Below, piece after piece: positions 1,503-61,064 of a stretch of DNA of 64,000 nucleotides. Position 1 is the first letter of the stretch. Each line of letters starts with the position of its first letter. A program made the translations under genes and the position numbers. Under the pieces are notes generated by a model. It was not told where the DNA came from. It searched no databases and saw only the letters and a list, made by a program, of their open reading frames with translations. This DNA comes from Hydrangea macrophylla (lineage: Eukaryota; Streptophyta; Magnoliopsida; Cornales; Hydrangeaceae): NCBI GenBank assembly GCA_033977485.1, contig CM066990.1:10977001-11041000 (forward strand), read 5' to 3'.

Positions 1503-1571
1503 TTCGATCGATCGAAGACCGTTCGATCGCTCGAACCTTCGATCGATTGAACACTGTTCAATCGCTTGAAC
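1503..1571. repeat. TTCGATCGATCGAA paired-motif array (copia leader, first)
   Basis: Four copies of the 14-bp self-complementary motif, some with one or two changes, start at 1503, 1522, 1538 and 1557. They form two pairs, each with a start-to-start distance of exactly 19 bp; the pairs are 35 bp apart. Confidence 0.8.
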
Positions 1572-1681
1572 ATTCTGTTTCACAGAATGATTTAAAAAAT
1601 TTTACAGAAATAATTTAAGATTAAAGTATAATTTAAAAAACCCTTATAACTGTGAACAGAACACCTGGACAGAGAATCTGT

Positions 1682-1801
1682 CTCGATCGATCGAACACTA
1701 TTCGATCGATCGAACACCAGAAGGCTTCGATCGATCGAAACGAGTTCGATCAATTGAGAACAGAATGTTCGATCGATCGAAACAAGTTCGATCGATCGAA
1801 C
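1682..1801. repeat. TTCGATCGATCGAA paired-motif array (copia leader, second)
   Basis: Six copies start at 1682, 1701, 1726, 1745, 1768 and 1787. They make three pairs with exactly 19 bp inside each pair and 44 and 42 bp between pairs. Confidence 0.85.
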
Positions 1802-1956
1802 CCACCTTGCATCCTATGCAATCACAGTTTTGTATTCTGCTGCGATAACACTGCAGAAACAGAACTATGACGATGCAGTTTCGAAAACAGTTCTAAAATC
1901 AACATGCAAATCAAAACTAGGGTTCCAAAACGCATCTATAGATCCAAACGAGCGTG

Positions 1957-1968
1957 GCTCTGATACCA
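1957..1968 (-). other. Copia primer-binding site for initiator tRNA-Met
   Basis: On the minus strand the sequence is TGGTATCAGAGC, the standard plant copia primer site complementary to the 3' end of initiator tRNA-Met. It lies two bases inside the LTR boundary, which fixes the LTR end at 1971. Confidence 0.95.
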
Positions 1969-2316
1969 ATTGAAGGAAAAAGTGGTTTAAAGTTAGAGTT
2001 TAAACGCGCAGCGGAAAATAGGTTAAGTTATAAAACTTTTGGTATTCCAGGATCTACTACTTGTCAATTCCATAGATGCGTACAAGGGGTGCAAGAATTA
2101 TACCTTAGTGTCTTGAACCCAATTCTGAAACTTCAACTTCCAGCAGCCTCCACTAGATGATCTTCACCCTTATGACTCCTGCGGATGCCTGCCGGAAAGA
2201 CTAGGGTTGGTGGGAACCCTAATAGAGAGGATAGGAAGGTTTTGGGAAGACTATGATAGTTTCTGTAGCTTCTGCGTATAAAAACGATGATCACTTACTT
2301 CCAGAACGCAGCTGCC

Positions 2317-2325
2317 CTATTTATA
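2317..2325 (-). promoter_or_regulatory. Copia LTR TATA box
   Basis: TATAAATAG on the minus strand, about 22 bp downstream of the motif array at 2348-2461. The position inside the LTR is right for the element promoter. Confidence 0.6.
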
Positions 2326-2347
2326 GATTTCCAGAACCGACCTAGAC

Positions 2348-2461
2348 TTCGATCGATCGAAGTGACTTCGATCGATCGAACCTTCGATCGATCGAACCAT
2401 TCTCGATCGATCGAACCTGCTGACTTCAATCGATCGAACATACTTCGATCGATCGAACCTG
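2348..2461. repeat. TTCGATCGATCGAA paired-motif array (copia LTR)
   Basis: Six copies start at 2348, 2367, 2383, 2402, 2425 and 2444: three pairs with exactly 19 bp inside each pair and 35 and 42 bp between pairs. The array ends just upstream of the LTR TATA box. Confidence 0.85.
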
Positions 2462-3465
2462 TCTTAACAGCTTCCTCAAGTGTCTTTCCAAGCATCCTAG
2501 CGGAGCTAAGAGTGGGACCTCCTAGGCTCTTTATTGTTGGCTCAGACCAGTTTGTTAATTACCATGACCAAACTCTTTGATCAGCAAACTAACTAACTGG
2601 TCAGTTAACGTTTATTCCACTATAAAACAATAACTGAACTCCAACGCAAAAGAACATATCCGAAGCGATAACTAGACTTGTATGGTGTACTAATGTCCCT
2701 CTACCGTCAGCATTCGTAATCATATTCAGGTAGTCGGATAACTATTACTGTCATCCTGAATCATGATTACTTCTTGTATTCCTTGAGTCCCATTCACCAC
2801 TCATGATTACCAAACATGTTGATAACTCTTATCAACAAGACTGCAGTACTCAGTAATCAACTTGGTGACATTCTCAAGGGAATGCTTACTCTGAATCAGA
2901 GGGTAGATTCTATCTTGACAATATATGTTCACAACCCTATGGACATGACATACCCAAGATACCCAGGTGTTGATCTTCTATAGACCTCACTGATTGGTAA
3001 GTCAAAATAGCCATATCCATAGTCTGTGTTCATAATCATCTCAAGATTGAGAACACGTACCTTATACAAGTTATGAGTTCCTATTGACTGTTGACAGCCT
3101 TAAGCGTCAATAGGAAAGCTCAGGTCCGTCAATGCACTATAAGCACTAGCATATCAACTAAGAGCTACACTCTAGTGATTGAGATTAATCACTCCATCCA
3201 ATGGTAGTTAATTATGCTACAGTGTAGACCTGATGAGGTATCCAGTCTCATCATCCACTGTGACATATTCTAAGTATCAAAAATAGTAATTCGTATCTCA
3301 CTTGTGTGTATCTCATACACACACGAATTGCTTACTATGATACTTAAGGACAAAACAATCATCTCATGAAAGAAACATACACAATGAAATGTAAAGCTGA
3401 TATCCATATATTATAATGCTAATGTCTCATACATAAAGTAATGGTTTGAGGGCACAAACCCAACA

Positions 3466-8024: not shown

Positions 8025-8029
8025 ACAAC
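8025..8029. repeat. Target-site duplication of LTR C, left copy
   Basis: ACAAC, repeated exactly at 10490-10494. LTR A keeps the empty site (GTACAACTATAGG near 5720). Confidence 0.93.
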
Positions 8030-8110
8030 TGTAATACCCTGTATTTTCGGATGCATGGTTATATAAATAAGACCCTGTATGTTTTTGTGAAACCTTGGTG
8101 AAGAATCTTT

Positions 8111-8305
8111 CTCGAGCGATCGAACTCACTTCGATCGATCGAACATTGTGCTTTCTCAATCGATCGAACATACTTCGAGCGATCGAATCTCTGCCGACAT
8201 GATTCTGTGATGTGTACCCTTTCCCGAGCGATTGAACTTCTTTCAATCGATCGAACCTTAATCGACCTGTTCTCAATCGATCGAACTCATTTCGATCGAT
8301 CGAAC
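8111..8305. repeat. TTCGATCGATCGAA paired-motif array upstream of LTR C TATA
   Basis: Eight motif copies start at 8111, 8130, 8155, 8174, 8223, 8242, 8272 and 8291. All four pairs have exactly 19 bp inside the pair; spacing between pairs varies (44, 68, 49). The TATA box follows about 50 bp after the last copy. Confidence 0.87.
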
Positions 8306-8352
8306 GTTGTATTTTCAGTTTACGTGGTTGCCACCTGCCCTTCTTGTTTCCC

Positions 8353-8362
8353 TATATATATA
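8353..8362 (+). promoter_or_regulatory. LTR C TATA box
   Basis: TATATATATA between the motif array and the GT/GA-rich leader. The context is right for transcription rightwards from about 8390. Confidence 0.55.
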
Positions 8363-8404
8363 CGTGTGTTTTGTGTGTGTGTGGTGTTTGGCAGTTTAGA
8401 GTTA

Positions 8405-8500
8405 GAGAGAGAGAGAGCTTGTGTGTGTATGTGTGTTCCATATATATATATATATATATGTAACCGTATGTGTGTGTGTGATATATATATATATATATGT
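8405..8500. repeat. Compound microsatellite (GA, GT, AT) in LTR C leader
   Basis: Successive GA, GT and AT dinucleotide runs, then GT and AT again. Open frames across this tract are low-complexity artefacts. Confidence 0.8.
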
Positions 8501-8656
8501 GCTTGGGCAGAGAAGAAGAAGAAGAGAACAAGAAGAGGAGCAGAAGAAGAGGAGAATAGAGACAGAGAGGAGAAGAGGAGAGAAAGAGAAGAAGGAGAGA
8601 GAGAACGAGCTCACCATAGCCGTCGCCGTCAAGCTCGGAACGCCGCCACCGGACCA

Positions 8657-8673
8657 CCGGAGAGAGGTGAGTT
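8657..8673 (+). promoter_or_regulatory. Splice donor inside LTR C
   Basis: CCGGAGAGAG/GTGAGTT, a near-consensus plant 5' splice site about 310 bp after the TATA box. Donors at comparable positions occur in LTRs A, B, D and E. Confidence 0.55.
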
Positions 8674-8785
8674 CATTAACTCACTCGAGGAATGATTCTA
8701 GGGTGTTATATGCTGTTTAGAACGTTTATATTGTGACCCCGAGATCTTTGTTCGTCGCTGCCAAGTTTCTGGGTAGAAGATGATG

Positions 8786-8950
8786 TTCGAGCGATCGAAC
8801 TATTCTCGATCGATCGAACTTACCGCTTCCTCAATCGATCGAAGGAACTTCGATCGATCGAAACGACTTTTCCTCGAGCGATCGAAATGACTTCGATCAA
8901 TCGAACTTCGTTTGACTTCAATCGATCGAGAGGACCTCAATCGATCGAAC
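8786..8950. repeat. TTCGATCGATCGAA paired-motif array downstream of LTR C donor
   Basis: Eight copies start at 8786, 8805, 8830, 8849, 8873, 8892, 8917 and 8936: four pairs, each exactly 19 bp, with pairs 44, 43 and 44 bp apart. It lies in what would be the leader intron. Confidence 0.88.
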
Positions 8951-9437
8951 CTTGCAGAACATGATTAATTCCTGTTGATTATAATATGAACTGTTTAGTT
9001 GATTAAATGTTGATCCATGCTTTTATTATGCGATATTGTTAATTTAAGAGATAGTGCAACACTGTTATGAGATGAACTGTTTAACTGTTACATGATAATA
9101 TTGCTGAACTGAATAGTAGAATGGAATACGACAGCATGTTAATAATCAGAAATGAATAGATATGTTGAATACAGAGCATGTGGTATTTCCTGTACTTAGT
9201 AGATGAGCATTTCACAACATGTGTCAGCATGCATGGGATAGTGATGTGAAGAGATGAGAAGAATCTGATGAGAAATGGGACAGTGTTATGATGAGATGAG
9301 AATCGGGAACTGTGCATCAGTATGGAAATGGGATATGTGACTTATGTGGAATAATGAGATATTGGTACTTTGGATCCGTGGGATCAACGGCTGACGAGCC
9401 GGGTGGACGTGGGATGGTTAGAGTTCCTAGTGCGCCT

Positions 9438-9625
9438 CTCGCTGTTGAAGACGTCCAGTGATGCGTATGCACTGTTGAAGACGTCCAGTGTACCGTTGAA
9501 GACGTCTGGCTAGTGCTCTAATGTATTCTCAGTTGTGTAGACGACCAGTGAGGATATACACAGCGTAGAAGACGTCCGTTGTGCCGCTTCCATCGTTTAT
9601 AGATAGGTGGTACCGTGTAGACGAC
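9438..9625. repeat. GTTGAAGACGTCCAGTG repeats in LTR C
   Basis: About six spaced copies of GAAGACGTCC or GTAGACGACC with CAGTG tails. They correspond to the reverse complement of the GACGTCTTC repeats of LTR A. Confidence 0.65.
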
Positions 9626-10494
9626 CGGTAACCCTATCAAGGGATTGTGGGACCTGCTGCCTAGTCGGGTGATTCCGATTGGCAGTATTGTATCGACGAA
9701 TGGATATCGGATTTGGATTATGGTATCAACGTACAGATACAGAGATGGATATGGATATGAGAATGGCTAGTAAGAAGATGGTTCAGTCGTGGATTCAGCG
9801 TCCCGACGTAAAGGTATATGCATGGGTGGTTGCATGGGTTACATGCATGGATTTGGTGAATACGTGATGAGATATTTATACCATGATCTTTATTATTGAG
9901 TTCATTTAATATGATTCCTGTTATCGTTGAATTCATGCATAGTTTAATAAGACCTCTGCTATGTCCGTGAGTGACGTCATTGATAAGAGATTAACCGCAT
10001 TCTAAGATGCTGAACAATAGCGGTGAGGAGTGTTGTTTAATGTACTCACTCAGCTTTGTATTCGAAGCTGATGGCGTTTATGCCCTGGACATTCCAATGT
10101 CTAGAGCTTCGCAGGACTTGAGGACGAGAGACTGATGTTCTGCCGGTCTTGGAGCTGAAGGCTTGGAGAAGAAGACATGCTGCTTGTAATAGTTAGTTTG
10201 TATATCTGTTGTTATTGTTGTTATAGGCCTCAGACTATAAGCCAGCTATTGTAATAGATTTAGTAGACCTTTATAATTGGTACTTGGGCATTTGTTGCTT
10301 CCAAACCTTTTATAGTTTCCGCTGTAGCCTCTGATTATGTTAATAAGATATGTTCTATGAATAGCATTCCTCCCTATCGTGGTGTTTGTTGGTTTGATTA
10401 GATGACAATGCGGTTATTCACCCGTCATTCCCTATGGACCCATAAAGGAAATTTATTTTTCCCTATTTATGCTGCTCCGGGGCGTGACAACAAC

Positions 10495-12756: not shown

Positions 12757-12759
<3 letters not shown>

Positions 12760-12817: not shown

Positions 12818-12823
<6 letters not shown>

Positions 12824-18967: not shown

Positions 18968-19889
18968 TGATTGAGTCAAAATCAAGTTCTTGTGTTTATC
19001 TTATTTAAAAAAATGTAGTACGGTGGAAATAGGGTGTCGAGTCCACAGGGATTGGAGTGCAACAATACTTGGTGGGCGCTTAATAACCAATTATAATGCG
19101 AGGTGCAATAACCAAACTAAGAAATAAAATTGAGTCTTTTCGACTTTGAAGTTGGTTTAATTTGTAAAAGCTTATACTACGATGGATATCAAGAAAAAGA
19201 GAAAGTAAACCTTGAACAAAGTTAAGTTTAATTAACAAACGGGGGTTTTGTAAATGGAGAAGTTGAGGTTGGGGAGAATTCCCCCACCTTGGACCAACCT
19301 ACACATGATTTTCACACTTGTAGCACATTCTAGAGTAGAAAATTCCATTGGGACAAACTATCAAACATGTAGTAAACCAACATGCTAGATAGATGTTCCA
19401 ATGCAATACATTGGTATAGGATTAGAGTTTAGAGATTTAACAACTTCCAATGCTTGACATTGGAAGTGAGGTCTCAAAACATCCAACCACACACCCATGA
19501 ACTCTAGAGATGCTACAAAATGTGAGAGTCCTACAATAAATCACACATGGGTCCAATGGTGGGTTTATGATCCCCAACCTACATGATTTAGCTACTCCTA
19601 ATCATAATGACAACAATATTAAAGAGAGGGAAGGAGAGATTATACCAACAAGCTAAACCCACAATAAATGCCATAGAAAATCCAATGAAATCTTCAATAA
19701 AAAACTTCCAAATATTCAATACATTGACACTCTCTTCTCTCTAACAAATAAAAGGATGTAAATATTGGTAGATGGGGAGTAATGAGGGAGAGAGATGAGA
19801 GGATTATAGAGAGAGAGATTGAAACCTCAGGGAAACTTAGAAAACACAAGCTAAAAAACAAGCTAAACCTAACAAAAATCTATCACTAA

Positions 19890-19899
19890 CTATATATAG
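19890..19899 (-). promoter_or_regulatory. Athila-1 3' LTR TATA box
   Basis: CTATATATAG followed on - by GTTAGTG. The other LTR has the same box at 31280-31289. Confidence 0.6.
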
Positions 19900-19953
19900 C
19901 TTATACAAAAGATGGCAAACTTGTAATAAAAAGGGAAAGTCATCAGCAGAGGC

Positions 19954-20203
19954 GCGGATCGATCCCTTCAGATTGGCGGATCGATCCGCCTTTCATCTGG
20001 GAAAATACTATGTCTTCGAGAACCCGCGGATCAATCCGCTCTTCTAGCCGGATCGATCCATTTAGAGATCCTTCTCGCAGAATGCTATGGGAAGATCGCG
20101 GATCGATCCCTTCATTAGGGCAGATCGATCCGCCCTTTTTGAATCAGACAGTAAGTTCCCATTGAACATGCGGATCGATCCCTTCATTAGGGCGGATCGA
20201 TCC
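19954..20203. repeat. GCGGATCGATCC phased paired array, Athila-1 3' LTR
   Basis: Four pairs start at 19954, 20026, 20098 and 20170: the period is exactly 72 bp each time, and the second site of every pair starts exactly 22 bp after the first. Spacers between pairs have little obvious similarity. The array lies just upstream of the TATA box. Confidence 0.92.
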
Positions 20204-20440
20204 GCCCTTTTTAAATTCTTCTTCTTGACCTTTTTCAACTACATGAATGCTACCACGGCTGGATTCCCCTACACCCAAGCTTACATACCCTACCAAAAGA
20301 GATCTTTATTAGCTAAAAGAGGGTAACAACAAGAACAATCAAAAGCACAATTTATCCATTAAGTCTCCGATTTGAGTAGTAATTTGTGTCCAATAAGGGT
20401 AAAATCATGAAATTCAGAGTGCAATATTGGACACGAATCA

Positions 20441-21771: not shown

Positions 21772-23013
21772 CTAATCCTCACCATCTCCGTCTCCTCCTC
21801 CATAGCTACCCGAGCCACCTGCACCACCAAAAGCACTGGGATCATCCGCACCACCATAGGCACCTGAGCCTCCAGCACCACCAAAAGAGCCTGGGCCGCC
21901 TGCGGCACCATACGGGTCGCGAAAGTAGTCTGGGACATCAGTGCCTGGGTACTGCATCCGGAACGAATCGGTCTGGAAGCGAATCAACATGCTCATGTCC
22001 CGCCGATAGCTCATACCGAATGCATCAACCTTCCCCCTTAAGCTACAAACATCACTCCGTATCCCTGCAATCTCCATGCCCTGCTACCTCTGCTCGATAG
22101 TAAGAGTCTCGAATCGACGGTGCAACTCGACCATACCCTGTGCAGGCTCCTCCTTCTCCATCTCGGCCTGAGCTCCAGACGGTCCCTCCTCCACTCTGGC
22201 TCTCTTGGACGCGGATCTAACCTGTGCATCGCTACGAGCGAGCGTCGTCCCATTGATTGGGGACAACGCAACTTTGAGAACATTGGACGCTAAGGCCTCA
22301 CACCCATGTGAGGTGCAAAGCCGGGTAACAAGGACCACAAAAGGGAGGCTAGCAGTGGCAGCAGTGTCGTTGGACGCTGCTACCATGAGGGAGATGATAA
22401 TGCTCGCGAAGTCGACTCAGGCGGTGGGATCAGTAATAGCGTACAGGAGGGTATCGTGGTCCCCCCTAATAGTCTTGTGGCGAGTTGGCCACACTGCCGT
22501 AGTGACAATGATATTACAGCACCGGTAGAACCTGGTGAAAGAAGATGGGGCAATCTGGTCCCTGATCCACTCGGTCGGTCGACCCGTGAACCGGGTAGCG
22601 AAGGTATCATTGTGAGGCCGCTGCTCCAAGTCATCCAGGTAAGGCTCAGGGTCCTCCACGTGAGGAACCCCCATGAACACGGCTAAAGTAGCCGGGGAGA
22701 CCGGGATGCGGACACCCCGAATATACGACTCAAAAGTGCGAGCGCCGGTGGTGACTAGACTAGCGAAGAAGATCCGGACCCACGTCTCATTGTATCCGCC
22801 CGAATGTTCCAACTGGGTGAGCCATCGGCGGCACCTAAAGGTCTGGACCACGTCGTCTGGAAAATCGAAAATAGTAATGAGCTGCTCAGGGAGGATGGAC
22901 TTTTTTGACTTAAAGAAGTTGACGAACCATTATTTCTCGATTTTAGAGCAGAAGCGGTCATACCCACGGGCGGGGGATCACTCGATTCTGTTATATTTTA
23001 ACGAATTCACCAT
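21772..23013 (-). pseudogene. Athila-1 env-position ORF (broken)
   Basis: A 414-codon frame from the ATG at 23013 to the TAG at 21772, with in-frame stops after NRIE, KIEK, DPTA and IEQR. Conserved blocks are FFKSKKSILPEQLITIFDFP, LEHSGGYNETWVRIFFASLV, FMGVPHVEDPEPYLDDLEQR and a Gly/Ser/Asp-rich tail (GGAGGSGAYGGADDPSAFGG). Athila-2 has the same protein at 52433-53369. Athila elements often carry an ORF in this env position. I see no signal peptide or membrane segment, and the central block is of the kind annotated in plants as a putative transposon protein, so function is unknown. An upstream motif array and splice donor suggest it had its own transcript. Confidence 0.75.
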
Positions 23014-23827: not shown

Positions 23828-24150
23828 ACGGATCGATCCGCTCAGAGGCCGGATCAATCCGACATTTTAAAACGATTTATTTGCGCCTTTTCAAAATCGC
23901 TGATCGATCCGCTCTAAGAGCCGGATCGATCCATTTCGGAGGTTGAAAAGCAGTGTGTCTGTTGTAAAATGCGGATCGATCCGCTTGTTAGGCCGGATCT
24001 ATCCATTTCAACAATGTCAAGGCAGTGTCTCTTCCCAAACTCGCGATCGATCCCCTCGATAATGCGGATCGATCCTCCCTTTTTCAATTTGCTCAATAAC
24101 TTCTCCAGAAACCCGCGGATCAATCCCCTTGGGACTGCGGATCGATCCGC
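23828..24150. repeat. GCGGATCGATCC phased paired array, internal, before env-position ORF
   Basis: Five pairs; the GGATC of the first sites is at 23830, 23901, 23973, 24044 and 24117 (spacing 71, 72, 71, 73), and the second sites follow at 21 or 22 bp. It has the same motif and geometry as the LTR array but is a separate copy located between pol and the env-position ORF. Confidence 0.92.
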
Positions 24151-24307
24151 CCCTTTCCCTCCTCAATAGTTTTCAACTCTGAAAGCTTTTAATCATTAGA
24201 AAAAAAAAAAAGGGCGCTATGGATGCTAAGGACATGACTTAGAACAAAAATTATGCCAAAATTCTAACAAGGGGCATACAAAAAAAGGGAGTATAGCTCA
24301 CGAGAGC

Positions 24308-27300
24308 CTACTCGACCCCAGCATTGGGGTCTTCCAAAGGAATTGATACCAACTCCGTGTCAAAACCTTCAAGAAAAGGTTTGAGCCGTTGTCCATTGAA
24401 CTTAGAAATTGTCCCATCCGCGGGATCTTGAATCTCAACGGCTCCATAGGTAACCACCCTGTGTACAATGTATGGCCCACTCCACCGGGATTGTAACTTA
24501 CTCGGAAACAAGTGGAGCCGTGAATAGTATAACAACACCTTGTTACCACTATAAATTGCTTATGAATAATCCGTTTGTCATGAAATGCTTTAACATGTGC
24601 CTTGTACACTTTAGAATTCTCGTAGAGTTCACTTCGAATTTCCTCCAACTCGTCGAGTTGAAGCTTTTTCTTCTCGCCACTCTCATCCACCTCGAAATTG
24701 AGCTTCTTTATGGCCCAATAAGCACTATGCTCAAGCTCGACGGGCAAATGACATGCCTTCCCATAAACTAACCGGTAGGGGGACATTCCTAAATTTGTCT
24801 TATAGGCCGTCCTATATGCCCAAAGCGCATCGGTTAGCCTAAAAGACCAATCTTTCTTCGACGGATCGACCGTCTTCTCTAGAATCCCCTTGATTTCATG
24901 ATTAGACAATTCGGCTTGGCCATTAGTTTGCGGGTCATATGTGGTGGAAACCTTATGGGTGACGCCATATTGCTCCATTAACCGAGCAAAAGGGGAATTG
25001 CAAAAGTGCACCCCTTGATCACTAATTATGGCCTTCGGAGTGCCAAACCGGGACAAAATATGTTCTTTGAGGAATTTTAAAACAACCTTGTGGTCATTAG
25101 TCCTTGACGGTATGGCCTCAACCCACTTGGAGACATAGTCAACCGCCACCAAAATATATTCAAAATGATTGGATTTGGGAAAAGGTCCCATGAAGTCTAT
25201 ACCCCAACAATTGAAAACTTCTATAACAAGAATGGGGTTTAGAGGCATCATGTTCCTCCGGGTGACTCTACGAAGAAGTTGGCACTGGGCACAAGCTTTG
25301 CAATAAGCATGTGCATCTTTAAAAATTATGGGCCAATACAACCCGCTATGGAGCACTTTAAAGGCCGTCTTTTGTGAAGAAAAGTGGCCTCCACACGCTT
25401 GATCATGGCAAAAAGACAAGACACTCGGTATCTCATCATTAGGCACGCATCTCCTCACAATTTGATCGGCGCAATACTTAAACACATAGGGATCATCAAA
25501 GAAGAATGACCGTGCCATGGTTATCAACCGTTCCCTATCTTGAGTGGACCAATCTTGAGGTAGTTGGCCCGTGATAAGGAAATTCACCACATCGGCATAC
25601 CAAGGGAGAGTTGAAACATTGATCAATTGCTCATCTGGGAAACACTCTCTAATAGGCACGGGGTTAATATAATCATGATTAAATGTCAAACGCGACAAAT
25701 GATCTGCAACAACGTTTTTTACCCCTTTTTTATCTTTGATAGAGAGATCAAATTCTTGTAATAGAAGGATCCATCGGATTAGCCAAGCCTTAGCATCTTT
25801 CTTGGAAAGAAGGTACTTGAGGGTGGCATGGTCGGTGAAACAAATGATCAGCGATCCCACAACATAAGACCGGAATTTCTCGAGAGCAAATACTATGGCG
25901 AGCAACTCTTTCTCCATCATGGAGTAGTTGGATTGCGCACTATCAAATGTACGGCTCGCATAGTAAATGACATGGGGCTTTTTGTCTTTCCTTTGCCCCA
26001 AAACGACTCTGATGGCGTAGTCACTCACATCGCACATTAATTCGAATGGAAGGCTCCAATCGGGAGGTTGCATAATTGGTGCGGAAGTGAGTAATACCTT
26101 AAGCTTCTCAAATGCCTCTTGGCAATCTTGGGACCACTCAAATGGGATGTCTTTAGCTAAGAGGAGACACAACGGTCTAGAGATCGAGCTAAAGTCCTTT
26201 ATAAATTTACGATAGAAGCCCGCATGGCCCAAAAATGACCTAATGTCTTTGAGGTTCCTGGGAGGGGGAAGGTTGGAAATGACATCTATTTTGGTTTTGT
26301 CAACTTGCATTCCCTCGCTAGACACAATATGGCCTAACACAATCCCTTGTGTCACCATGAAGTGGCACTTCTCCCAGTTAAGAACGAGATTCTTTTCTAT
26401 ACATCTCTTGAGAACCTTTTCAAGATTCTCAAGGCATTCATCGAATGAATCTCCAAAGACTGTGAAGTCATCCATGAAGACTTCCAAAAACTTCTCCACC
26501 ATATCACTGAAGATACTACTAATAAGCATGCACCTTTGAAAGGTGGAAGGTGCATTACAAAGTTCGAACGGCATCCTCCGATAGGCAAACGTGCCAAAGG
26601 GGCAAGTGAAGGTGGTTTTCTCTTGGTCCTTGGGGGCTATTTCTATTTGATTATACCCCGAGTAACCATCTAGGAAGTGGTAGTGCTTATGGCCCGCTAC
26701 TCTTTCTAGAACTTGATCAAGGAAGGGTAAGGGGAAATGGTCCTTTCTAGTGACCGAATTCAACTTCCTATAATCAATACAAACACGCCACCCTGTGGTG
26801 GCTCCTATGGGTACCAACTCTCCACTCTCATTCTCGATGACGGTGATCCCCAACTTCTTAGGGACCACTTGGGTAGGGCTCACCCACTCACTATCGAAAA
26901 TGGGATAGATTATCCCCACATCCAACAACTTGATGACCTCGGTCATCACCACCTCTTTCATATTAGGATTAAGCCTCCTTTGCATTTGACGTGAAGGCTT
27001 GGCTTCATCCTCTAGATAAATCTTGTGGGTGCAAATCTTCGGAGAAATGCCCCTCAAGTCTGCTACACACCACCCGATAGCACTTTTATGCTCCTTCAAA
27101 ACCTTCATCAATTTCCCTTCTTGACAAGGGTCAAGCTGGGAAGATACTACAACCGGAAAACTCTCGTCCTCTCTCAAAAAGGCATACTTGAACTCACTTG
27201 GCAAGGATTTGAGCTCCAGTATTGGTGCGACTATATTGGATGGAAGAGGGAAAGTATCCCTCGGAGGTAGTCTTTCAAAATTAGAGGTCCACATGGCCTC

Positions 27301-49587: not shown

Positions 49588-52432
49588 TGTGGATACCGGC
49601 ATTTGGGCCCACTTTTAATTTTAAAACATTTCAAATACAAAGAGTCGCCACTTAATTTTTAAAAGGAAAAATTAAGAAATCATTTTAAAAGCAAATCGAT
49701 CGTTTGAGAAACCAAAGATTAACTAGGTCCGGGGATTATGGAATGAGAAGAGAAGGAGCCCGATGGACTAAAACACCCATTTTCATCCTATCTCGTGATA
49801 GGCCTCTACTCAACATCCTTTTAATCGAATTATTAATCTAAATGCGTCCTCAACTAATACATATGTATAAATATACATCACAAAGCATGTCCAAAGGGTA
49901 TAAGATTGCTAAGGGCAAAATATCATTCAAAAACCACATAATTCATTTAGCAAGCGACATGATATGCAATAGAGGACAAGGGAACTTACCCGGGATCCAG
50001 CCGCGAATTTTAAACACGCAATGCATGCAAGCAAATAAAATAAAACCAAGAAAGGAGTCTCTAATCGCATATAAACACATAAGGCAAGACCTAGTCTAAG
50101 GTGTCGCGCATAGAGTTGAAAATCAATTAAAATCAAAGAAGTAAATTAAACTAGAGGAGGGGTTGAGAAATTGTACCTCAAATGCGCTGCAAAACATAGG
50201 GTTAGTTCACATACTTTAAATAAAAATATCATTAAATCCTAAGAAAAAAATCCTTACACAAAGCGGATTCCATTTACAAGTATCAATCTATATGAATGAA
50301 TGCACCTGGATACATGAATGTGAACAATGTAAAAGTTGTGAACTATTCATTAATTTGGATCATTTAGCCTCTGGTTTTAAGCTTAAGTAATCTTTATTAG
50401 TGTATGGTATAAGCCTTAGGTTAAGAAAAGATCATTTAAACCCTTATTTACAAAGTTGGTAAAAACTATGACAGGATTATGAAAATTGCTGAGAGTAGAT
50501 CAGAACTTCAAAGAAATAAAAGACATGGTTCCCGCGGTTTGATCTTGATGATTTTTGGGTACAAGATGCCTCTGTGAGTCTAGTTTTTAGTCCAAAAAGA
50601 AAATCAAGGTTTCAACGGTTAGATCTCTAGGAATTGAACAAATACCAGACATCACTCAGGATTTCATAACTCTCTGTCCAGAGTTCTTTTATGATTTTTT
50701 AAAACTAGTAAAAAAATCAAAAACACTTGAATCTTTTTAGGGGATCTTGTTAACACATCAAACTTCGTATAAAAATTATTTGGGTCAAAAATGTTTGATT
50801 AAGGTTCTGATTTACTCATTTCAAAAGGGTGTTACTGTTCTAAAACTCTGGACAGATTGTTGTTGTCTCCCAAAAACTCATAACCAAACCATGTTAGCCA
50901 CCATGGAGGCTAGTTAAAAAAAATAGTGGTAGAACTTTGAGTTATAGACATTTTCGTGTTGGTTTCATTCAGTTCCAACAGTTCGATGTTTAACTAAAAC
51001 TCCTTGATCAAAGGTGGTCATTGAATTCACTGCACCATTTGTCAAGTTCAACTTTATTTGTTAACCCCAACTACTAAACCTTGAAGTTGGGCTTAATCCA
51101 AATTATTTCTTCCACCATTTGATGCTCATTGAAGACTAATGACATTTAAACTTGTGGATTTTAAATGAAGTATGAAGAAACTCCTTAAAACCCCAAGATA
51201 AAGAACCTAAACCATGAAGATAAGCTTAGATTCAAACTACTTCTCTTACCTTTGATGGTCATTGGAGACTAAGAACATTCAAATTTGTAGATTTCAATGA
51301 AGTATGAAAAGACTTCATAAAACCTCAAAATAATAAGTTCAAACTATGGATACAAGTTTGGACCCATTGACTCAATATACTAAAATCAACCTCAATCCTC
51401 TCATGAATCATAAGTTCATAAGAATATTAAGGGATACTAAGAGCAAAGACCCAAGTATGACATTGAATGTTTCATGAATCTTTAGAAATAAACATAATCA
51501 AAAGAAAGGAACCAAAGTTCTACTTCAAGATTTACTTAAACTTTGAACCCAAGGCCATTTTGATCCAAACTAACGAAATGAGAGTTCAATCACAATACAT
51601 GTGGTGTGTGATGAAATGAGGTGGGAAGAGAGATTTTGAAAATGTGTAAAAAGATCCTAAGCATCTATGTATTATGATTGAACTTGGATGTTAAAACTAA
51701 GTGATTTAGAGTTTACCTCTAATTATCCTCAACTCATTTTGTTGCTTTGAGATCTTCCAAGAATGATGATCAAGCTCTTCTTCTTCTAATTTCACTTCTC
51801 TCTTAATTTAGAAAGTTTTGAAAGAGAATCACTATTGGGATCCTAACACTCTAAAATTCTAAGTTCCTATTAATGGGATACACATCCTCTCTATATAGGT
51901 AATCTTTGGAGGGTTATTTTGGAAATTTTGTAGCCAAAACCCTAATTTCAGCCGCCATTTGAAGGTATAAACCGAACTATTTTAGGACAGGTTATCACAA
52001 AATGCGGCACTCAGGAGATATCCAAGGCACTCAATAAATGTCATTGCGGCACTCACTGTTTTCCAGAACGACATTCAAAGAATGCCGCATCGGCACTCAT
52101 GGAGTGCCGCAGATAACTCCTTGGACTGCCATTTTTTCATGAAAGTTCAAATTTTACGGCACTTGGTAAAATTCGCGACATTCACAGAGTACCATTCTGA
52201 TACTTCATAGAGTGCCGTACTGCATCACGTGACTGCCGCAGAACTTATCCTATGTCGTTTTCCTTTATTTTCTCTTTTCCTCTCTTTTTCGTTTTGTTTT
52301 GAATTAAAAGAGCCTTTGGAAGAGCTTGAATCACCTTTGGAAGTCTTGGATTAGTCGGACGCTTGTCATCATCAGATCTTAGAGATAATACTCCCCTTAA
52401 TTCGACGCGTGGTCAAAATTAGGGTGTCTACA
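49588..52432 (-). repeat. Tat 5' LTR of Tat2 (2845 bp)
   Basis: On - it runs from TGTAGACACCCTAATTTTG (52432) to CCACA (49588). TATA box CTATATAG at about 51891-51898, with the motif array at 52006-52245 beginning 108 bp upstream. Its outer edge cuts directly into the Athila-2 env-position ORF. Confidence 0.92.
52006..52245. repeat. GGCACTC/GAGTGCC motif array, Tat2 5' LTR
   Basis: Same array as 36757-36987; the first sites at 52006, 52026 and 52048 keep the 20 and 22 bp steps. It includes CGGCACTCATGGAGTGCCG with one inner change. Confidence 0.8.
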
Positions 52433-55457: not shown

Positions 55458-55470
55458 TAGTTGGGGGGTG
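55458..55470 (+). other. Athila-2 terminal polypurine tract
   Basis: TAGTTGGGGGGTG directly before the 3' LTR at 55471. Confidence 0.88.
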
Positions 55471-56856
55471 TGATTTGTGTTCAATATTGCATTTTTAACT
55501 CGTGATTTTATCCGTATTGAGCACGAATTAGTACCTAAACCGGGAGATTTAATGGATAAATTGTACCTTTGTTAATCCTCTTTGTTATTGTCTTTTAACT
55601 AATAAAAATCTCTTTCTTGTAGATGTTTGAGACTTGGTAGAAGATTGGGACCGAAAATTTGAGATTATACTTCAAAGGAAGTAAAATTTGAGAATCTGCC
55701 CAGGCGAATCCATCCAGGCTCATCAGGTGGATTGATCCGTTCATTCTAAAGGAACTCCGTGTCCAGAAAATGCAAGGCGGTTCAATCCGGCATTACACCG
55801 CGAATCGATCTGCAAGTTTCACTGAAGATTCTGTTGCCTAATTGAAGAACCGGATCGATCCAGCTTTTTGTCTTGGATCGATCCGTGGCCTCTGATGTGT
55901 TCCTTCTTTTAATCACAAGTTTGCCATTATGTGTCAAAAGTATATATATTTAGAGATGGTTTTTATTTAGGGTTAACTTGTATTTTCTTTGTTAGTTAGG
56001 AGTAGTAAACTCTCTCTCTTTTAGGTCTCCATCTCTCCATCCCATTTATTCTCCCATCTACCTCACTCAAGTTGTATTGAAGACTAAGAGAGAGAAATTA
56101 GTGTGTGTATTGAATAGCTTAAAGCTTGGCTTAGATTTTTATTGGATATATCTATGGCATTTATGATGGTTCCCTCTAGTTGGTATAATCTCTCTTTTCC
56201 CCTCTTTAATATTAATGTTATTGTAGTTATGAATAGCTAAATCGTGTAGATTGGGGATCATAAATCCACCATTGGACCCATGGGTGTTTTAATGTAGGAC
56301 TTTCACACTTTGTAGCATGTATAGAGTTCATAGGTGCAAGGTTTGATGTATTGAGACCCAATTTACAATGTCAAGCATTGAAAGTTGTTAAATCTCTAGA
56401 CTTCAAACCTATACTCATGTATTGCATTGGAACTTCTATCTAGCATGTAGGTTGACTACCACATATTTGATAGTTTGTCACAATGGGATTCTCTACTTTA
56501 GAATGTGCTACAAGTATGAAATCCATGTGTTGGTTGGTCCAAGGTGGGGGGAATGCTCCCCAACCTCAATTTCTCCATTTAAAAAACCACTAATTTTTAA
56601 TTAAACTTAGGTTTGTTCAAAGCTTACTTTCCATTTTCTTAATAGTCATTGTAGTAAAATTTAGTACAAATTGAATCAAACCCAAAGTCAAAAAGACTCA
56701 ATTTTATTTCGTAGTTTGTTAATTACTCGCATTATAATTGGTTATTAAGCGCCCACCAAGCATTGTTGCATTCCAATCCCTGTAGACTCGACACCCTATT
56801 TCCATTGTACTATGTTTTTAATAGGGTAATAAAAGAACTTGATTTTGACAACATCA
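55471..56856 (+). repeat. Athila-2 3' LTR (1386 bp)
   Basis: From TGATTTGTGTTCAATATTGC to GATTTTGACAACATCA, clearly related to the Athila-1 LTR but strongly diverged. Motif array 55704-55886, then TATA box TATATATATT at 55941-55950. Confidence 0.9.
55704..55886. repeat. Phased paired array in Athila-2 LTR (diverged GGATCGATCC type)
   Basis: Three pairs with GGATC-equivalent positions 55706/55729, 55779/55802 and 55852/55875: 23 bp inside each pair and exactly 73 bp between pairs. Individual sites are eroded (GCGAATCCATCC, GCGGTTCAATCC), yet the spacing is regular. It lies about 55 bp upstream of the TATA box. Confidence 0.85.
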
Positions 56857-56858
56857 TT

Positions 56859-57108: not shown

Positions 57109-57860
57109 CGTTTTATGATCCTGTGATGCCCCATTTGATCCCTAAACTTAACCTTTGCTCTGTTCTGGTTCTTTGATGCATTTTTTTAACAATATTTTCA
57201 TGATAATGAGTACTTGAAAATATTCATAGAGTATTATACATCACACTTGCATATGCATATGAATCCCCAGTAGAGCAATTAGCCTCATTACATTGCATTG
57301 CATCAGTCTCCCGCATTGTCGCACTAACCCGTTCAAGCAAATTTGAGTCATGCAGGGTGCTCCCATTTTACCTTAGATGGTTCCAAAAGTACCTTGTTCC
57401 TAGCAGAGTGATGTTGTATTTATATCCAATTCCCCAATAGAGTTATCTCGCATTCGCATCCGTGTTAAAGTTTGCCCTGCACTTGCAGTTCGCCTTAAAT
57501 GGCTCTGTAAGTTCATTCCCCAATTGAGTTAGCACTAGAATAGTAGTTCTCCTTTTGAGGCTCTACTATGTAAAGCATCCGTGTTGCTAGTTGCAAACGC
57601 TCGTGATGGTCACTGTAACTGGCTTATCACTGCGTATTCTGGGCATAGTTCGCCTAAAGTTGCTCTATGGACCCTTCTTGTGTCCACCTAGCTCACGCGA
57701 AGAACAACGCACGAAGATGTTGATAGTTGTTGGGTGCAAATGCTTGTGATGTTCACTGTAACTGGCTCATCACTGCATATTCCGCGCATAATTTACCTTG
57801 AGTGGCTCTATGGACCCTTTCTTGTTTCTACCTAGTTCATGCGAAGAGCTACGCATGGAA
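57109..57860 (+). other. Element F 3' noncoding sequence
   Basis: No gene. It holds two diverged copies, about 130 bp apart, of a segment containing GTGATGGTCACTGTAACTGG and GAAGAGC/GAAGAAC words (about 57605 and 57735). Confidence 0.5.
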
Positions 57861-58046
57861 ATGTCGCATTGTCCGTGCTTAGGAAACCCCAATGTCATAT
57901 CGTCCAGGCTTAGGACATCCTAATGTCGCATCGTCCGAGTTTAGGATACCCCAATGTTGCATTTTTCGCGCTTAGGACACCCCAATGTCACATTATCCGC
58001 GCTTAGGACACCCCATTGTTGCATTGTTCGTGCTAAGGACACCCTT
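57861..58046. repeat. Tandem array, exact 31-bp unit, six copies
   Basis: Unit ATGTCGCATTGTCCGCGCTT then AGGACACCCCA. Six copies fill 186 bp without length change, with substitutions only, many at CG positions. Confidence 0.93.
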
Positions 58047-58177
58047 CATGTGTTTCAGATCCCAGTTACACCGCAAATTGTAACTTAGGTCCATCCCCGA
58101 GTGTGCTGCATGTTTTTAAGTTTCATATCATTCATTGTATTTTACTTGAATTATTGCTTGCATGTGGTGTGCTCATT

Positions 58178-58389
58178 GAACTACGGTTGGTTTGATTTCT
58201 TGTAAAGGAATATTTAGGCAGCACTTTCGAGCACGACCATTTAATTTTTGAGATTTTTTTGTGTGCTTGCATGTATTCATTTTCTTGATTTTCTTTTTGA
58301 AGTCTTTCGGACTCACTTAAAGGTTGAGATACTTTGACATTCCCTTATGACGCGCGTTGTTTGCAAATCTCTCTCAAAGAGGGACAAAC
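58178..58389 (+). other. Element F Tat-type 3' box and polypurine tract
   Basis: Box at 58178-58222 and tract AAAGAGGGACAAAC at 58376-58389, about 155 bp apart, as in Tat2. Confidence 0.75.
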
Positions 58390-59668
58390 TATAGACACCC
58401 TATTTTGGTTCGTCTGTTCGACAGAAGGAACCCCGCCTAAAAACAACCTAATGACTGGATTCGAGAATTGTCGATTATATGAAGGAGAACTCCATGAAGC
58501 ACTGTGGTCTTTTAGACATGTTAGATAACCCTTAGAAAGACTTACGAAATTTAGAAACTCAATTTAGAACCAAAAGCCCAAAATAAAATGCTTTTCTACG
58601 TGAAATGACCAAAATATTTTTATTAAGTCAAAATACTCTTATCTGAGCCAAAATCCGGACTTTGGGGTAGGATCCCAAGAAATCCTTTTCTAAATAGTCC
58701 TAAAATATTTTTAAACTGTAGCCCAAACAAAATAATTCCCAAATATTTTTTGTACCAAAATAACCTTGAAAGCCCATTACGGGCAGCCTTTTTTAACACA
58801 ACTTTAGTGTTTTGACCATAACTCTTAAACCAGGAGGAGTTTGGGCTTGAAATCACTTGCAATGGATAGCATATTTCTTGGGCATATAAATCCGTAGGTC
58901 ATAAACCTAATTTGGACGTAAAATGAGTGAAACCTTTTAAAGTTGTCCCATAGTGCAGTGACAGGATTAAAAGCCCAAACCAGGATTTCTATCTTGTTTT
59001 ATTTTTGGAGACTTTTTAAATACAAAAATTAGTATTTTTAATTACCAAAACACTCAAAAAAGATTAGGATAGAATTTAAAAACTTCCATATCCTAATTTA
59101 CTTGGGCTCTACTCCACTTATTTATAACTTTGCCACCTAGAAAAATTATATAAAGCTGTCACACCCATCCCAGGAATTTATAATTTTATCATGCATATTT
59201 GTAATTTGGGAGTTTATCAATGTTAGTTGATAATGGTGATGAGGTTGACTGTGAGTCAACGGTAAGGTGTCAGTGAGGACACGGGAACATGGCAGTTCAT
59301 ATTGCATGGGCATGAGTAAATGGCATTTGCATGATTTAAATGTTATTTGACTTTATCTGGTATTCTTGTGAATAGTAATTATACCTGTGTAGTATAATTC
59401 TGGTATTTGGATACTTTAGTATATCATTTTGAGAACTGTGGTGAGAACGTGAGTGATACGTTAATTAAAAAGGTAGGTTGTGTAGAGATTCCACAGAATT
59501 TAGTTTTCGGACGTTATTTTGGACCCAAACGAAACCTAGTAGAAAACTTTTGAAATTTATAGTTTTCACTCGTAAAGTTATAAAATGGACGTGTGCGAAG
59601 TTTTGGGAGTTAATTAGAAGTTTTGAAAAACTGGCGGGGAGGTAAACGTAATTCCCAGAAAGTTTTTC

Positions 59669-59676
59669 TATAAATA
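59669..59676 (+). promoter_or_regulatory. LTR D TATA box
   Basis: TATAAATA followed by a GA-rich leader; the splice donor is 160 bp downstream. Confidence 0.65.
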
Positions 59677-60773
59677 GTAGAGGATAGGATTTCATTTCTC
59701 CAAAAAGTTATAAAATATCTAGAGAGAGAGGAGAGAGAAGGGAGATTGGAGCCAACGGGTTTTGCGACGATAAACGACGACCATTCGTCCGTCAGATTTT
59801 CTCCAGATTCAAGATTTGAACTCGTGGAGGTAAGATCTACGTTTTGATACTACTTAGGCCGTGTTTGGCCAATTTTTGTAAAAAATCTTAATTCTAGACT
59901 TTTGGAAAAAACAGGTATAAACTTGTAGGAATTTTCTCAAATTCAAAATCCGACGATCATTTGACCTCCTAGTCGATCCTTCAAAGTTTGGGGGAAATCG
60001 CACGAGGTATGAAGTCCTAACTTGTGAAATATAGAGAAATACATGTTTTATATTTCAACGACGAAATTGAGATCCGGGCGAAATCCATGTGTTAATTGTA
60101 GGCCCGTTAATTATGCACGTGCTAAATTGTGAAAAGTATGTCTAAATTTACGCGAGCACGTTGAGTTGTCTATGTGGGTCAAAGGGGAGTTTTATACAAA
60201 TTCATGCCGGAGTAAGCTTCTCGATGTTTGAGAATTTGAGTAGTGACGGCTACTGTGCATGGTTGTAGGCTTGGACTTGCCATGGCACTTGTGGGGATGT
60301 AATGGTTGTAGGCTTGGACTTGCCATTGACATCGCGGTTTAAGGCTTGGACTTGCCGCTACCGGATGAATGCATATTTTTCTCCCTAGAGACTATTGATA
60401 TGATTTATGAGATTAAAGCATGTTTATCATATATTGCATATGTTAGAACTTGTACACTCAACATATAGCTGAGCAGTGGATATGTACTCCATTGCAGGCA
60501 AAAAGAAAGACAAGAAGAAACGTGATGAGTGAGGCCGTGGAATGCCGGGGAATCAATTGTCTATACTTTTGTTCTACTCCGAACTTGTAATAATAATCTT
60601 GAATTCGTAGCATGTTGTAGTATAATCTGAACTTAGATTTAGTACTTGTAATCCCTAGTAAACGCTCTTGTATTTATGTTTTTGAATGATGGAATGGAGT
60701 GGACATATGTTGGTTTGGATTTGGGAGAACCTTGATTGGGAAAAACTGCAGTTTTGGGTTTTGCTGACAGAAA

Positions 60774-61064
60774 CCAGTCGACTGGTTTTTGATCCAGTCG
60801 ACTGGATCACTGTGTTGAATTGGTTACTGCTTGTTTCGTCTTTGATTCAGTCGACTGGGTTGAGAAAACAGTCGACTGGATGGGGCCCCAGGCCATGACA
60901 TTCTGCTGGATTAGGGTACCAGTCGACTGGACATTTTCAGTCGATTGATAATTTTAGGCACCAGTCGACTGGGTCCCCGACACAGTCGATTGGATGGGCT
61001 GTTATATTTTGAAACCTTTCTGTTTGAGATCACCAGTCGACCGGATCCTTGATCAGTCGACTGG
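60774..61064. repeat. CCAGTCGACTGG paired-motif array, LTR D
   Basis: Ten copies of the 12-bp self-complementary motif (a few with one change) in five pairs starting at 60774, 60847, 60919, 60961 and 61033. Distances inside pairs are 20, 21, 18, 21 and 20 bp; distances between pairs are 73, 72, 42 and 72 bp. Confidence 0.9.

Follow-up and report, generated by a model that had tools for sequence, protein, structure and literature searches.

Regularly spaced palindrome arrays in copia and Ty3 retrotransposons of Hydrangea macrophylla as candidate promoter elements

Introduction

Short repeated U3 cis elements bound by host factors are familiar from the stress-responsive LTR boxes of Tnt1, Tto1 and ONSEN, which have fewer copies than the arrays described here and an unlike geometry. 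The closest known precedent is the repeated palindromic motif (RM boxes) of Sirevirus (PMC2829016). In Sirevirus LTRs, each family has its own palindrome, repeated many times shortly upstream of the TATA box (Bousios et al. 2010, PMC2829016), and extra copies before the envelope-like ORF were taken to support an internal promoter, with function untested in that study. The sequence differs between families, of which 12 of 13 have a CGG-CCG core and Tnd-1 lacks it (PMC2829016, Table 3), and RM boxes were reported to be Sirevirus-specific and absent from classic Ty1/copia elements (PMC2829016). The parts of PMC2829016 considered here describe neither fixed spacing nor a comparison of sites with spacers.

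An initial annotation of the DNA analyzed here had offered VANDAL transposons as its precedent, an imperfect parallel that missed the RM boxes (PMC2829016). The 9-bp VANC21 motif is arrayed in one orientation, and its binding has been shown (PMC5735166, PMC10398659). VANDAL elements share with the present ones dense, short, family-specific noncoding motifs and fast repeat turnover (PMC5735166, PMC10398659), but they are DNA transposons, whereas the arrays reported here are palindromic, have fixed spacing, lie in LTR elements and are known from sequence alone. A single orientation is not found here, as palindromic words have none and the Tat half-sites run both ways. Arabidopsis SIRCs consist of 2–8 short repeats (10–29 bp) split by unrelated DNA; related copies occur inside mobile elements including ATHILA, and SIRCs are viewed as MITE-derived (PMC10342631). 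They differ in being direct repeats, more than half without palindromes, and the part of PMC10342631 considered here describes neither a position at promoters nor a fixed spacing in two steps.

Here we describe palindrome arrays in a 64-kb stretch of H. macrophylla DNA (the window). Palindromic boxes, earlier described as peculiar to one copia genus, here recur as one architecture in both copia and Ty3 elements and in at least four words.

Results

Palindrome arrays in different LTR elements

The motif cores in the window are TCGATCGA, GATCGATC, GTCGAC and GGCACTC-NNN-GAGTGCC (Table 1). When the window sequence was rechecked, the motifs and coordinates of the initial annotation were confirmed, while its statement that all contain CpG proved wrong for the Tat motif GGCACTC/GAGTGCC. 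The GGATCGATCC element has gag, the domain order RT-RNase H-integrase and an extra 3′ ORF, as expected of Athila (Ty3); the lineage names Athila and Tat are those of the initial annotation. Solo LTR B is itself inserted within a repeat.

Table 1. Positions of elements and arrays in the window
Feature	Position	Strand	Details
Ty1/copia LTR, TGTTGGG...CTTCA	1971..3465	-	from sequence; same LTR in L002, L006, L022
copia PBS TATCAGAGC	1957-1965		from sequence; follows LTR 1971..3465
Array A2, 6 TTCGATCGATCGAA sites, copia U3	2348..2457	-	spacings 19,16,19,23,19; TATA 22 bp downstream
Array A1, 10 sites in two blocks, untranslated leader of same copia as A2	1503..1800	-	downstream of PBS
Solo LTR B ("LTR C" of the initial annotation), TGTAATACCC...GTGACA	8030..10489	+	5-bp target-site duplication ACAAC
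Array B1, 7 sites of the 14-mer, solo LTR B	8111..8304	+	TATATAT 49 bp downstream
Array B2, 8 sites, solo LTR B	8786..8949	+	spacings 19,25,19,24,19,25,19; ~430 bp downstream of TATA
Athila 3′ LTR	18968..20440	-	98% identical to 5′ LTR at 30359-31830
Array C, 8 GGATCGATCC sites, Athila 3′ LTR	19956..20203	-	spacings 22,50,22,50,22,50,22; TATATAT 58 bp downstream
Athila 3′ additional ORF, start, PF20167 domain	22420..22929	-	interrupted downstream in this copy
Array D, 10 sites, internal Athila	23830..24148	-	between pol and 3′ extra ORF
Athila pol (RT, RNase H, integrase)	24298..27855	-	
Athila gag	28649..29782	-	
Array E, Athila 5′ LTR	31346..31593	-	counterpart of array C
Array H, Tat LTR, half-sites GGCACTC/GAGTGCC (<=1 mismatch)	36757..36987	-	spacings 20,22,32,12,10,22,52,10,23,21
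Array I, same half-sites, second Tat copy (93%)	52006..52237	-	
LTR of second, diverged Athila	55471..56857	+	BLAST, approximate ends; 78-82% in aligned parts
Array F, GGATCGATCC, 3 sites at <=1 mismatch	55729..55884	+	last pair 23 bp; TATATAT 57 bp downstream
Solo LTR D, TGTCACACCC...GTGACA	59157..61249	+	5-bp target-site duplication AAAGC
Array G, 10 CAGTCGACTG sites, LTR D	60774..61064	+	spacings 20,53,21,51,18,24,21,51,20

Like RM boxes, these are high-copy palindrome clusters in LTRs upstream of TATA (A2, B1, C, E and F; H and I by a weaker word). Array D occupies the env position, between pol and the extra 3′ ORF with PF20167, which may or may not be env-like. Unlike RM boxes, the window motifs lack the CGG-CCG core and occur in classic copia, Athila, Tat and other LTRs. 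Sirevirus is defined by a linker of at least 0.52 kb, several AGGGGGAG PPTs and an AT/TG junction (PMC2829016). Assignment of the copia element to this genus was rejected: in L022, a copy whose LTR is 98.9% identical and on which linker and PPT were assessed, pol stops 15 bp before the LTR, and there is one PPT (AGTGGGAG) and a TT/TG junction. The Sirevirus 5′ junction CA/ATTGG/TATCAGAGC is present in the copia element (window 1957-1972).

Motif words far exceed chance expectation

The 14-mer TTCGATCGATCGAA has 101,717 matches in the 2.22-Gb genome vs. 8 for its backward control, and close pairs of CAGTCGACTG number 61,095 vs. 0 for the control. Within the window, near-matches to TTCGATCGATCGAA (33 at <=3 mismatches), GGATCGATCC (33 at <=1) and CCAGTCGACTGG (9 at <=2), counts that include a few sites outside arrays, compare with means of 2.85, 1.25 and 0.8, respectively, in 20 dinucleotide shuffles. 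A word-blind scan of the window, from which low-complexity words and the 6.9–7.6 kb minisatellite had been removed, gave eight ten-mers with at least 6 copies in 500 bp; three were perfect palindromes (0.2% expected), and the other five may include overlapping as well as independent words. The palindrome arrays are thus real and far above chance. In random stretches, eight-mers with at least 3 copies per 600 bp showed no palindrome excess (8/1036;.0077 vs..0078 expected), and those with at least 4 copies did (7/370). Seven further palindrome clusters seen in random stretches were AT-rich or had three irregular copies.

The same 14-mer occurs in elements without other detected similarity, namely the classic copia, solo LTR B and the L009 repeat. 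Because one word is common to different elements, host factors seem likelier readers than element-encoded ones. Its roughly 100,000 exact copies could be a large sink or reservoir for a host factor that binds them.

Sites recur at preferred distances with unlike spacers

Sites within a pair lie ~20–23 bp apart (for the 14-mer, 19 and in places 16 or 25), and pairs recur mostly at 70–74 or 42–44 bp. In the window, Athila spacings alternate 22/50, those of LTR D are mostly 20–21 and 51–53 (18/24 once), and 14-mer spacings are mostly 19, with 16, 23–25, 30 and 68 also present. Genome-wide, among the matches listed, GGATCGATCC pairs were 20–23 bp apart in 50 of 50 (18–26 allowed; 29 distinct spacers), the following pair being 71–73 bp away in 17 of 20 close cases; 29 of the 42 distinct CAGTCGACTG spacers, from 50 pairs, measured 20–21 bp (10–40 allowed); and half of the 14-mer pairs (25/50) were 19 bp apart. 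Spacing in family members is therefore far from random for all three words, and the claim of pairs at a regular distance with unlike spacers is upheld by these counts. The geometry is not uniform (16, 19 and 25 bp for the 14-mer; 12, 17, 18 and 24 bp for some CAGTCGACTG pairs), and "about two helical turns," as the initial annotation put it, describes the 14-mer only loosely and is at odds with the 50-bp Athila step (4.8 turns).

Could the 72–73 bp units, two of which make ~145 bp, position a nucleosome at the LTR promoter? Distances of 145 and 146 bp were found in 2 of 20 GGATCGATCC cases among the matches listed, and nucleosome placement at the LTR has been argued for wheat RLG_Quinta (PMC11302176). 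Such an architectural signal would, however, need neither palindromes, nor different words, nor a 42–44 bp unit, and we regard it as extremely improbable.

Functionless, minisatellite-like turnover, in which a palindromic word multiplies by local duplication and the repeat unit sets the spacing, would account for units that have plainly been duplicated (starting at 20098 and 20170; tandem rows), for gains and losses of 50- and 72-bp units in the internal Athila array, and for CAGTCGACTG spacers resembling one another slightly more than shuffled letters do (mean similarity.48 and.40; shuffled letters somewhat lower,.33). Few spacers can be aligned, however: pairwise, only 4 of 208 CAGTCGACTG comparisons among the matches listed were at least 80% alike, which runs against spacers being tandem duplicates. 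Since spacers among these matches mostly differ in sequence, recent tandem duplication alone is insufficient to explain the regular spacing. Families with different words also have similar spacing, and sites are kept while spacers and flanks diverge (see below), making this explanation very unlikely.

Sites are conserved while spacers diverge

Between diverged copies, identity was 85–100% in sites, 45–81% in spacers and 63–88% in the remainder of the LTR. Values for site, spacer and rest were.89,.50 and.83 (LTR D–L031);.98,.60 and.81 (Athila–L014);.85–.97,.45–.49 and.75 (Athila–F, the LTR with array F);.88–.97,.48–.52 and.76 (L014–F);.85,.53 and.63 (solo B–L001);.95–1.0,.55–.66 and.88 (copia–L006); and.93,.81 and.84 (copia–L002), positions gapped in the other copy being left uncounted. 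The L009 pair gave.92,.67 and.76. The excess of sites over the rest of the LTR, as distinct from spacers, was non-significant for D–L031 (p=.065), Athila to F (.057) and copia to L006 (.08); over spacers it was weak for copia–L002 (.083), and young copies had no site excess (L022: sites and spacers 1.0, rest.988). Between the 5′ and 3′ LTRs of Athila, changes were more frequent in sites than elsewhere in the LTR (5/80 vs. 21/1392, p=.011), which we read, from five changes, as probable methyl-cytosine decay. As sites mutate fastest within one Athila insertion, their conservation resembles the outcome of selection acting in lineages that move. The intervening DNA is replaced, whereas words and distances persist, so that a reader of plant retrotransposon promoters becomes directly testable.

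Adjacent palindromes are complementary to one another by construction, and array transcripts (U3 at the 3′ end, the internal array) might fold into hairpins that feed small-RNA silencing or serve packaging, as has been argued for the Sirevirus palindromes of maize, a genome whose palindrome clusters have a surplus of small RNAs (PMC10760457, citing Bousios 2016). Among 39 partner positions that depart from the word in window pairs, however, 2 were Watson-Crick, 4 G-U and 33 neither, a count in which any genuine signal would be obscured by the decay of silent copies. Because a change in one partner site is rarely compensated in the other, DNA-protein recognition is favored over RNA hairpins. 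Hairpins could form without self-symmetric sites or a fixed spacing, the spacers that would be their loops vary, and selection preserving a silencing trigger would be odd. An RNA-level role is accordingly quite unlikely.

Arrays at promoters

With a fixed pattern, a standard TATA box was found <=70 bp downstream of 5 of 11 arrays (A2, B1, C, E and F) vs. 4.7% of random windows, and was absent there for the other 6; H and I are perhaps TATA-proximal, by a weaker TATA-like word. The proposal that arrays often lie just upstream of TATA thus applies to these five and perhaps to H and I. It does not apply to B2, to A1, which follows the PBS, or to G, ~1.1 kb downstream of the LTR TATA (59668), and the Athila array at 23830-24148 is internal and outside the LTRs.

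We favor, with reasonable confidence, a reading in which the arrays are upstream promoter (enhancer) elements whose palindromes are recognized as dsDNA by dimeric sequence-specific proteins. Each palindrome would be occupied by a protein dimer, two dimers ~20–23 bp apart would form one unit, units would repeat at ~72 or ~43 bp, and bound arrays would activate transcription. Each family would use its own word, the 14-mer also being common to elements without other detected similarity. The initial annotation's proposal of binding platforms for dimeric factors that control transcription gains indirect support from symmetric sites, fixed spacing, mostly unlike spacers, cross-lineage conservation, a promoter position in about half of the arrays and the scant sign of RNA pairing. 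As the words are defined, abundant and short, the prediction is one dimeric factor per word.

The internal Athila array and the extra ORF

Array D was found in 20 of 20 other Athila copies, chosen for a single unbroken match, which favors equal unit number (other matches consist of two overlapping pieces). Over the 21 copies, 91 of 176 spacings were 20–24 and 72 were 48–51 bp, and majority agreement was.958 in sites,.791 in spacers and.858 in flanks; none of 651 circular shifts of the site mask reached the site value. Indels >2 bp were of 10 (4 rows, deletion and insertion), 14, 22, 50 (2 rows) and 72 bp in the array and of 3–7, 10, 11, 27 and 35 bp in the flanks. In ordered copy comparisons, CpG was retained in 2911/3433 cases in sites, 1062/2289 in spacers and 714/1626 in flanks; the copies share ancestry, so these counts are not independent events.

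Retained CpGs would suit an anti-silencing platform, on which an element-encoded or host factor removes or blocks DNA methylation by analogy with VANC in VANDAL, as would dense, short noncoding motifs in fast-changing surroundings, like VANC targets (PMC5735166, PMC10398659), and the PF20167 ORF directly behind one array, whose product is predicted to be nuclear in sunflower (PMC11728184). CpG retention is equally expected from selection for binding, however, and VANC21 motifs, in the part of PMC5735166 considered here, have a single orientation and are not described as palindromic; we consider such a platform unlikely.

Additional ORFs are known from maize Grande, whose antisense gene23 has a reported promoter of its own (PMC7264820), and from sunflower Athila, with PF20167 (PMC11728184). 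The Athila element here has a 3′ extra ORF in common with them, PF20167 being shared with sunflower; the parts of PMC7264820 and PMC11728184 considered here describe no palindrome array. A rather improbable extension is that a nuclear PF20167 protein binds GGATCGATCC palindromes at its own internal promoter and LTR, keeping Athila transcribable, that related proteins with different words read the similar 20–23 / 72 or 43 bp arrays of other families, and that fast spacer turnover escapes small-RNA silencing. Such self-recognition, if true, would be a VANC-like system in LTR elements.

Under the promoter-element reading, Athila would deploy its array twice, at the LTR promoter and at an internal promoter before the extra 3′ ORF, the latter with a TATA-like box and a leader that may be spliced; this double use predicts an internal promoter for the extra gene. 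Array D, the TATA-like box and a candidate splice donor probably constitute that promoter. At the aligned TATA position, a manual count gave neither word in 2 of the 21 copies, TTAAAT in 5 and TATAT in 14, and the candidate donor, GTATGT, is conserved.

Palindromic-word arrays and the elements that carry them

Arrays of self-complementary words number 11 in the window and lie in 7 insertions of 5 LTR-retrotransposon families (see table). The lineage names Athila and Tat follow the initial annotation and are provisional; the gag and pol domains fit Ty3 elements.

LTR-retrotransposon features of the window and the arrays assigned to each element
Feature	Position	Strand	Arrays of the element	Remarks
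Ty1/copia LTR and its PBS	1971-3465	minus	A1, A2	redrawn from sequence
Solo LTR (LTR B)	8030-10489		B1, B2	target-site duplication ACAAC; redrawn from sequence
First Athila element, two LTRs	18968-20440 and 30359-31830		C, E (LTRs); D (internal)	LTRs 98% identical; sits inside Tat element
Second Athila LTR	near 55471-56857		F	
Tat element, two copies			H, I	one copy holds the Athila insertion
Solo LTR (LTR D)	59157-61249		G	target-site duplication AAAGC; redrawn from sequence

Site counts in the window were approximately 11- to 26-fold above dinucleotide shuffles. A word-blind scan for ten-mers repeated at least 6 times in 500 bp gave 8, and 3 of these were perfect palindromes, against an expected 0.2%. 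Genome-wide, one array word occurred 101,717 times, compared with 8 for its backward-read control; CCAGTCGACTGG occurred 14,039 times (30 backward-read) and GGCACTCNNNGAGTGCC 12,393 times (1 backward-read). Paired words were found at 61,095 places for CAGTCGACTG (the LTR D word), 24,268 for the 14-mer shared by copia and LTR B, and 12,843 for GGATCGATCC (the Athila word), each versus 0 in the control.

An additional 180 kb was drawn at random from contigs 1-18, as 18 stretches all inside the first 60 Mb. Of the 166 ten-mers that occurred there 4 or more times in 600 bp, 3 were palindromes. Among eight-mers, a palindrome excess was seen at 4 copies (7/370) and was absent at 3 (8/1036). When a single mismatch was tolerated, the number of palindrome clusters was 11, of which 4 had window words and 7 did not; the latter were AT-rich or consisted of three irregular copies. 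One candidate word from this genome, TTTCGAAA (locus L020), was dropped as low-complexity AT-rich sequence. The word at locus L026 in the additional scan was TAGGCCTA.

At locus L009, two 75%-identical stretches (5-865 and 3355-4215, 3.35 kb apart) each hold a six-site 14-mer array. Outside the array, BLAST found no similarity to those window elements that were tested, and L009 appears to be a further family with the same word. The stretches were first assumed to be an LTR pair, a status made uncertain by the 75% identity and the conserved sites; L009 was therefore left out as a decay control.

Spacing of the sites

For each word, spacing was sampled from the first 50 listed pairs, all of which lie in the initial 13 Mb of a single contig. 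Because the listed pairs hold segmental copies, distinct spacers (the DNA between sites) were counted where possible. At the start of contig G000:C1 (0-1.3 Mb), 14-mer places recur in ~503 kb blocks, direct and inverted; the cause is either segmental copying on a large scale or an error in the assembly.

Among the matches listed, GGATCGATCC pairs had 29 distinct spacers, all corresponding to a site-to-site step of 20-23 bp where 18-26 was allowed, and the next pair lay 71-73 bp away in 17 of 20 close cases (123, 145 and 146 in the rest). For CAGTCGACTG, 29 of 42 distinct spacers among the matches listed corresponded to steps of 20-21 bp (10-40 allowed); the other steps were 12, 17, 18, 22 (2), 24 (5), 32, 33 and 37. 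In seven CAGTCGACTG arrays examined in full, 30 of 61 spacings were 20-21 bp and 18 were 49-57 bp; the array at locus L054 has spacings of 21 and 41-42 instead. The 50 listed 14-mer pairs were spaced at 19 bp (25), 16 bp (7), 42-44 bp (13), 25 bp (2), 18 bp (2) and 35 bp (1). Those 42-44 bp pairs that were inspected had a degenerate site between them, and the listed 19-bp pairs had 12 distinct 5-bp spacers. Among the first 50 listed places of the Tat palindromes, seven close distances, counted by hand, were 21 bp (2), 43 bp (4) and 91 bp (1). A 23-bp minisatellite at 7027-7486 (20 copies, 69-bp higher-order unit) contains GGCACTC by coincidence.

The different words thus have in common a short step close to two turns of the helix, and a repeat unit that measures ~72 or ~43 bp. 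The two-turn step proposed in the initial annotation is loose for the 14-mer, and the geometry does not follow a single rigid helical rule. In Athila the mean phase was 34 degrees at the short step and -79 degrees at the long one, and for CAGTCGACTG it was about 0 (vector.66); the 14-mer vector was weak (.40, computed with counts of 8/24 rather than 7/25 for spacings 16/19 and with the one 35 omitted). Uniform phasing as a general rule is unsupported by these values.

The regularity was not dissolved by random spacing or by alignable spacers: spacing is quantised, and only 4 of 208 CAGTCGACTG spacer pairs among the matches listed were at least 80% alike. Simple tandem duplication is ruled out as the whole explanation by this spacing with mostly different spacers, although some units are duplicates. 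Spacers of GGATCGATCC often have GC at their start or end (array C, 19956-20203, and listed pairs); therefore, the complete Athila word could be GCGGATCGATCCGC, one arm of which is weak.

Site conservation and spacer turnover

Diverged copies of four families were compared, and sites were more alike than spacers in all comparisons except copia copy L022 and Athila's own LTR pair. L022 is young, with sites and spacers both at 1.0; the excess for copia copy L002 was weak (p=.083). Sites also exceeded the rest of the LTR in identity, significance not being reached every time. In diverged comparisons spacer identity fell below the rest of the LTR: spacers change faster, in part because gain and loss of units leaves non-corresponding units aligned with each other. 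Comparison of spacers alone was uninformative for sorting CAGTCGACTG arrays into families, since LTR D gave no match to its known relative L031; clear grouping was obtained only for L055, L056 and L057.

The largest set comprised the Athila internal array of the window and 20 other copies, chosen from 40 scored candidates for one match across nearly the entire query, which biases it to equal unit number. About 10 other candidates match in two query-overlapping pieces, the pattern expected from unit loss. All 21 arrays retain 7-11 sites, and 163 of 176 spacings are 20-24 or 48-51; the remainder are 40 (3), 58, 60 and 71-74 (8), the last of which would fit a site decayed past counting. Within the array, indels longer than 2 bp measure 10, 14, 22, 50 or 72 bp, and the three 10-bp deletions could descend from a single event. 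None of 651 circular shifts of the site mask equalled the conservation of the true sites. CpG retention in ordered copy comparisons, which are not independent, was.85 at sites and.44-.46 elsewhere.

Within one Athila insertion the relation is reversed, sites having changed more between its LTRs (5/80) than the rest (21/1392); four changes were G/A and one C/A. The contrast between lineages and within an insertion could reflect selection in still-moving lineages as opposed to decay in silent copies. The arrays might alternatively act as RNA hairpins, but compensatory change between partner sites is slight or lacking, and this reading was set aside.

Placement relative to promoters

Read along the element strand, 5 of the 11 arrays had a match to a fixed TATA pattern no more than 70 bp downstream, compared with 4.7% of random windows; arrays C and E are the two LTRs of one element, leaving four independent cases. 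Arrays H and I have a weaker TATA-like word, TTTATACC, added to the pattern after being seen. The earlier statement that arrays often sit just upstream of a TATA box is borne out for those five and fails for G, whose TATA lies 1.1 kb upstream of the array, and for B2 and A1, which are downstream of the LTR promoter. Just past the L054 array, at a distance of a few bp, stands CTATATAG. AT-rich TTTATATAC (1441-1449), not caught by the fixed pattern, lies ~54 bp downstream of A1 in the copia leader and is possibly a second promoter.

Judged from sequence, the arrays are probably promoter arrays whose palindromic sites would be occupied by DNA-binding dimers. An anti-silencing role is possible and, if true, would be the more exciting version of their function.

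The same plan is described for Sirevirus RM boxes, palindromes that precede the LTR TATA and the env-like ORF (PMC2829016). These are described there as Sirevirus-specific; the window arrays lie in Athila, Tat, a classic copia and other LTRs. The window copia was excluded as a Sirevirus on linker, PPT and junction, judged on L022; its own 5′ junction does match Sirevirus. In maize, an excess of small RNAs over palindrome clusters is reported (Bousios 2016, as cited in PMC10760457). None of the titles listed from open-licence papers, chiefly on LTR palindromes and promoters, dealt with arrays of this kind in Athila, in Tat or in a classic copia, which is weak evidence of absence. The raw array words matched 116 papers, and among the 40 listed no title concerned plant LTR palindromes.

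The Athila internal array and the extra ORF

Array D has pol on one side and, on the other, the 3′ extra ORF with domain PF20167. Across the 21 copies an A/T box lies ~15-25 bp past the final site; in two copies, which have long runs of G, the distance is greater. Counted by eye, it reads TATAT in 14, TTAAAT in 5 (including the window's copy) and neither in 2. A conserved CT-rich stretch follows, then a conserved GTATGT candidate donor at 23672 (minus), ~160 bp from the array. This arrangement suggests that array D is probably an internal promoter for the extra ORF.

One sunflower Athila 3′ ORF contains PF20167 with a predicted nuclear location (PMC11728184), and maize Grande is reported to contain an accessory gene that has a promoter of its own (PMC7264820). 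Of 23 candidates from a search for PF20167 homologues, not one reached E<=0.001, and a single-sequence structure model was uninformative (mean pLDDT 35.9).

In the window copy, 27-bp repeats at 21800-21897 encode a Gly-rich tail, and a stop interrupts the ORF upstream of it. Short tandem arrays with 31-bp and 37-bp units (57860-58044 and 56859-57103) neighbour the second Athila LTR.
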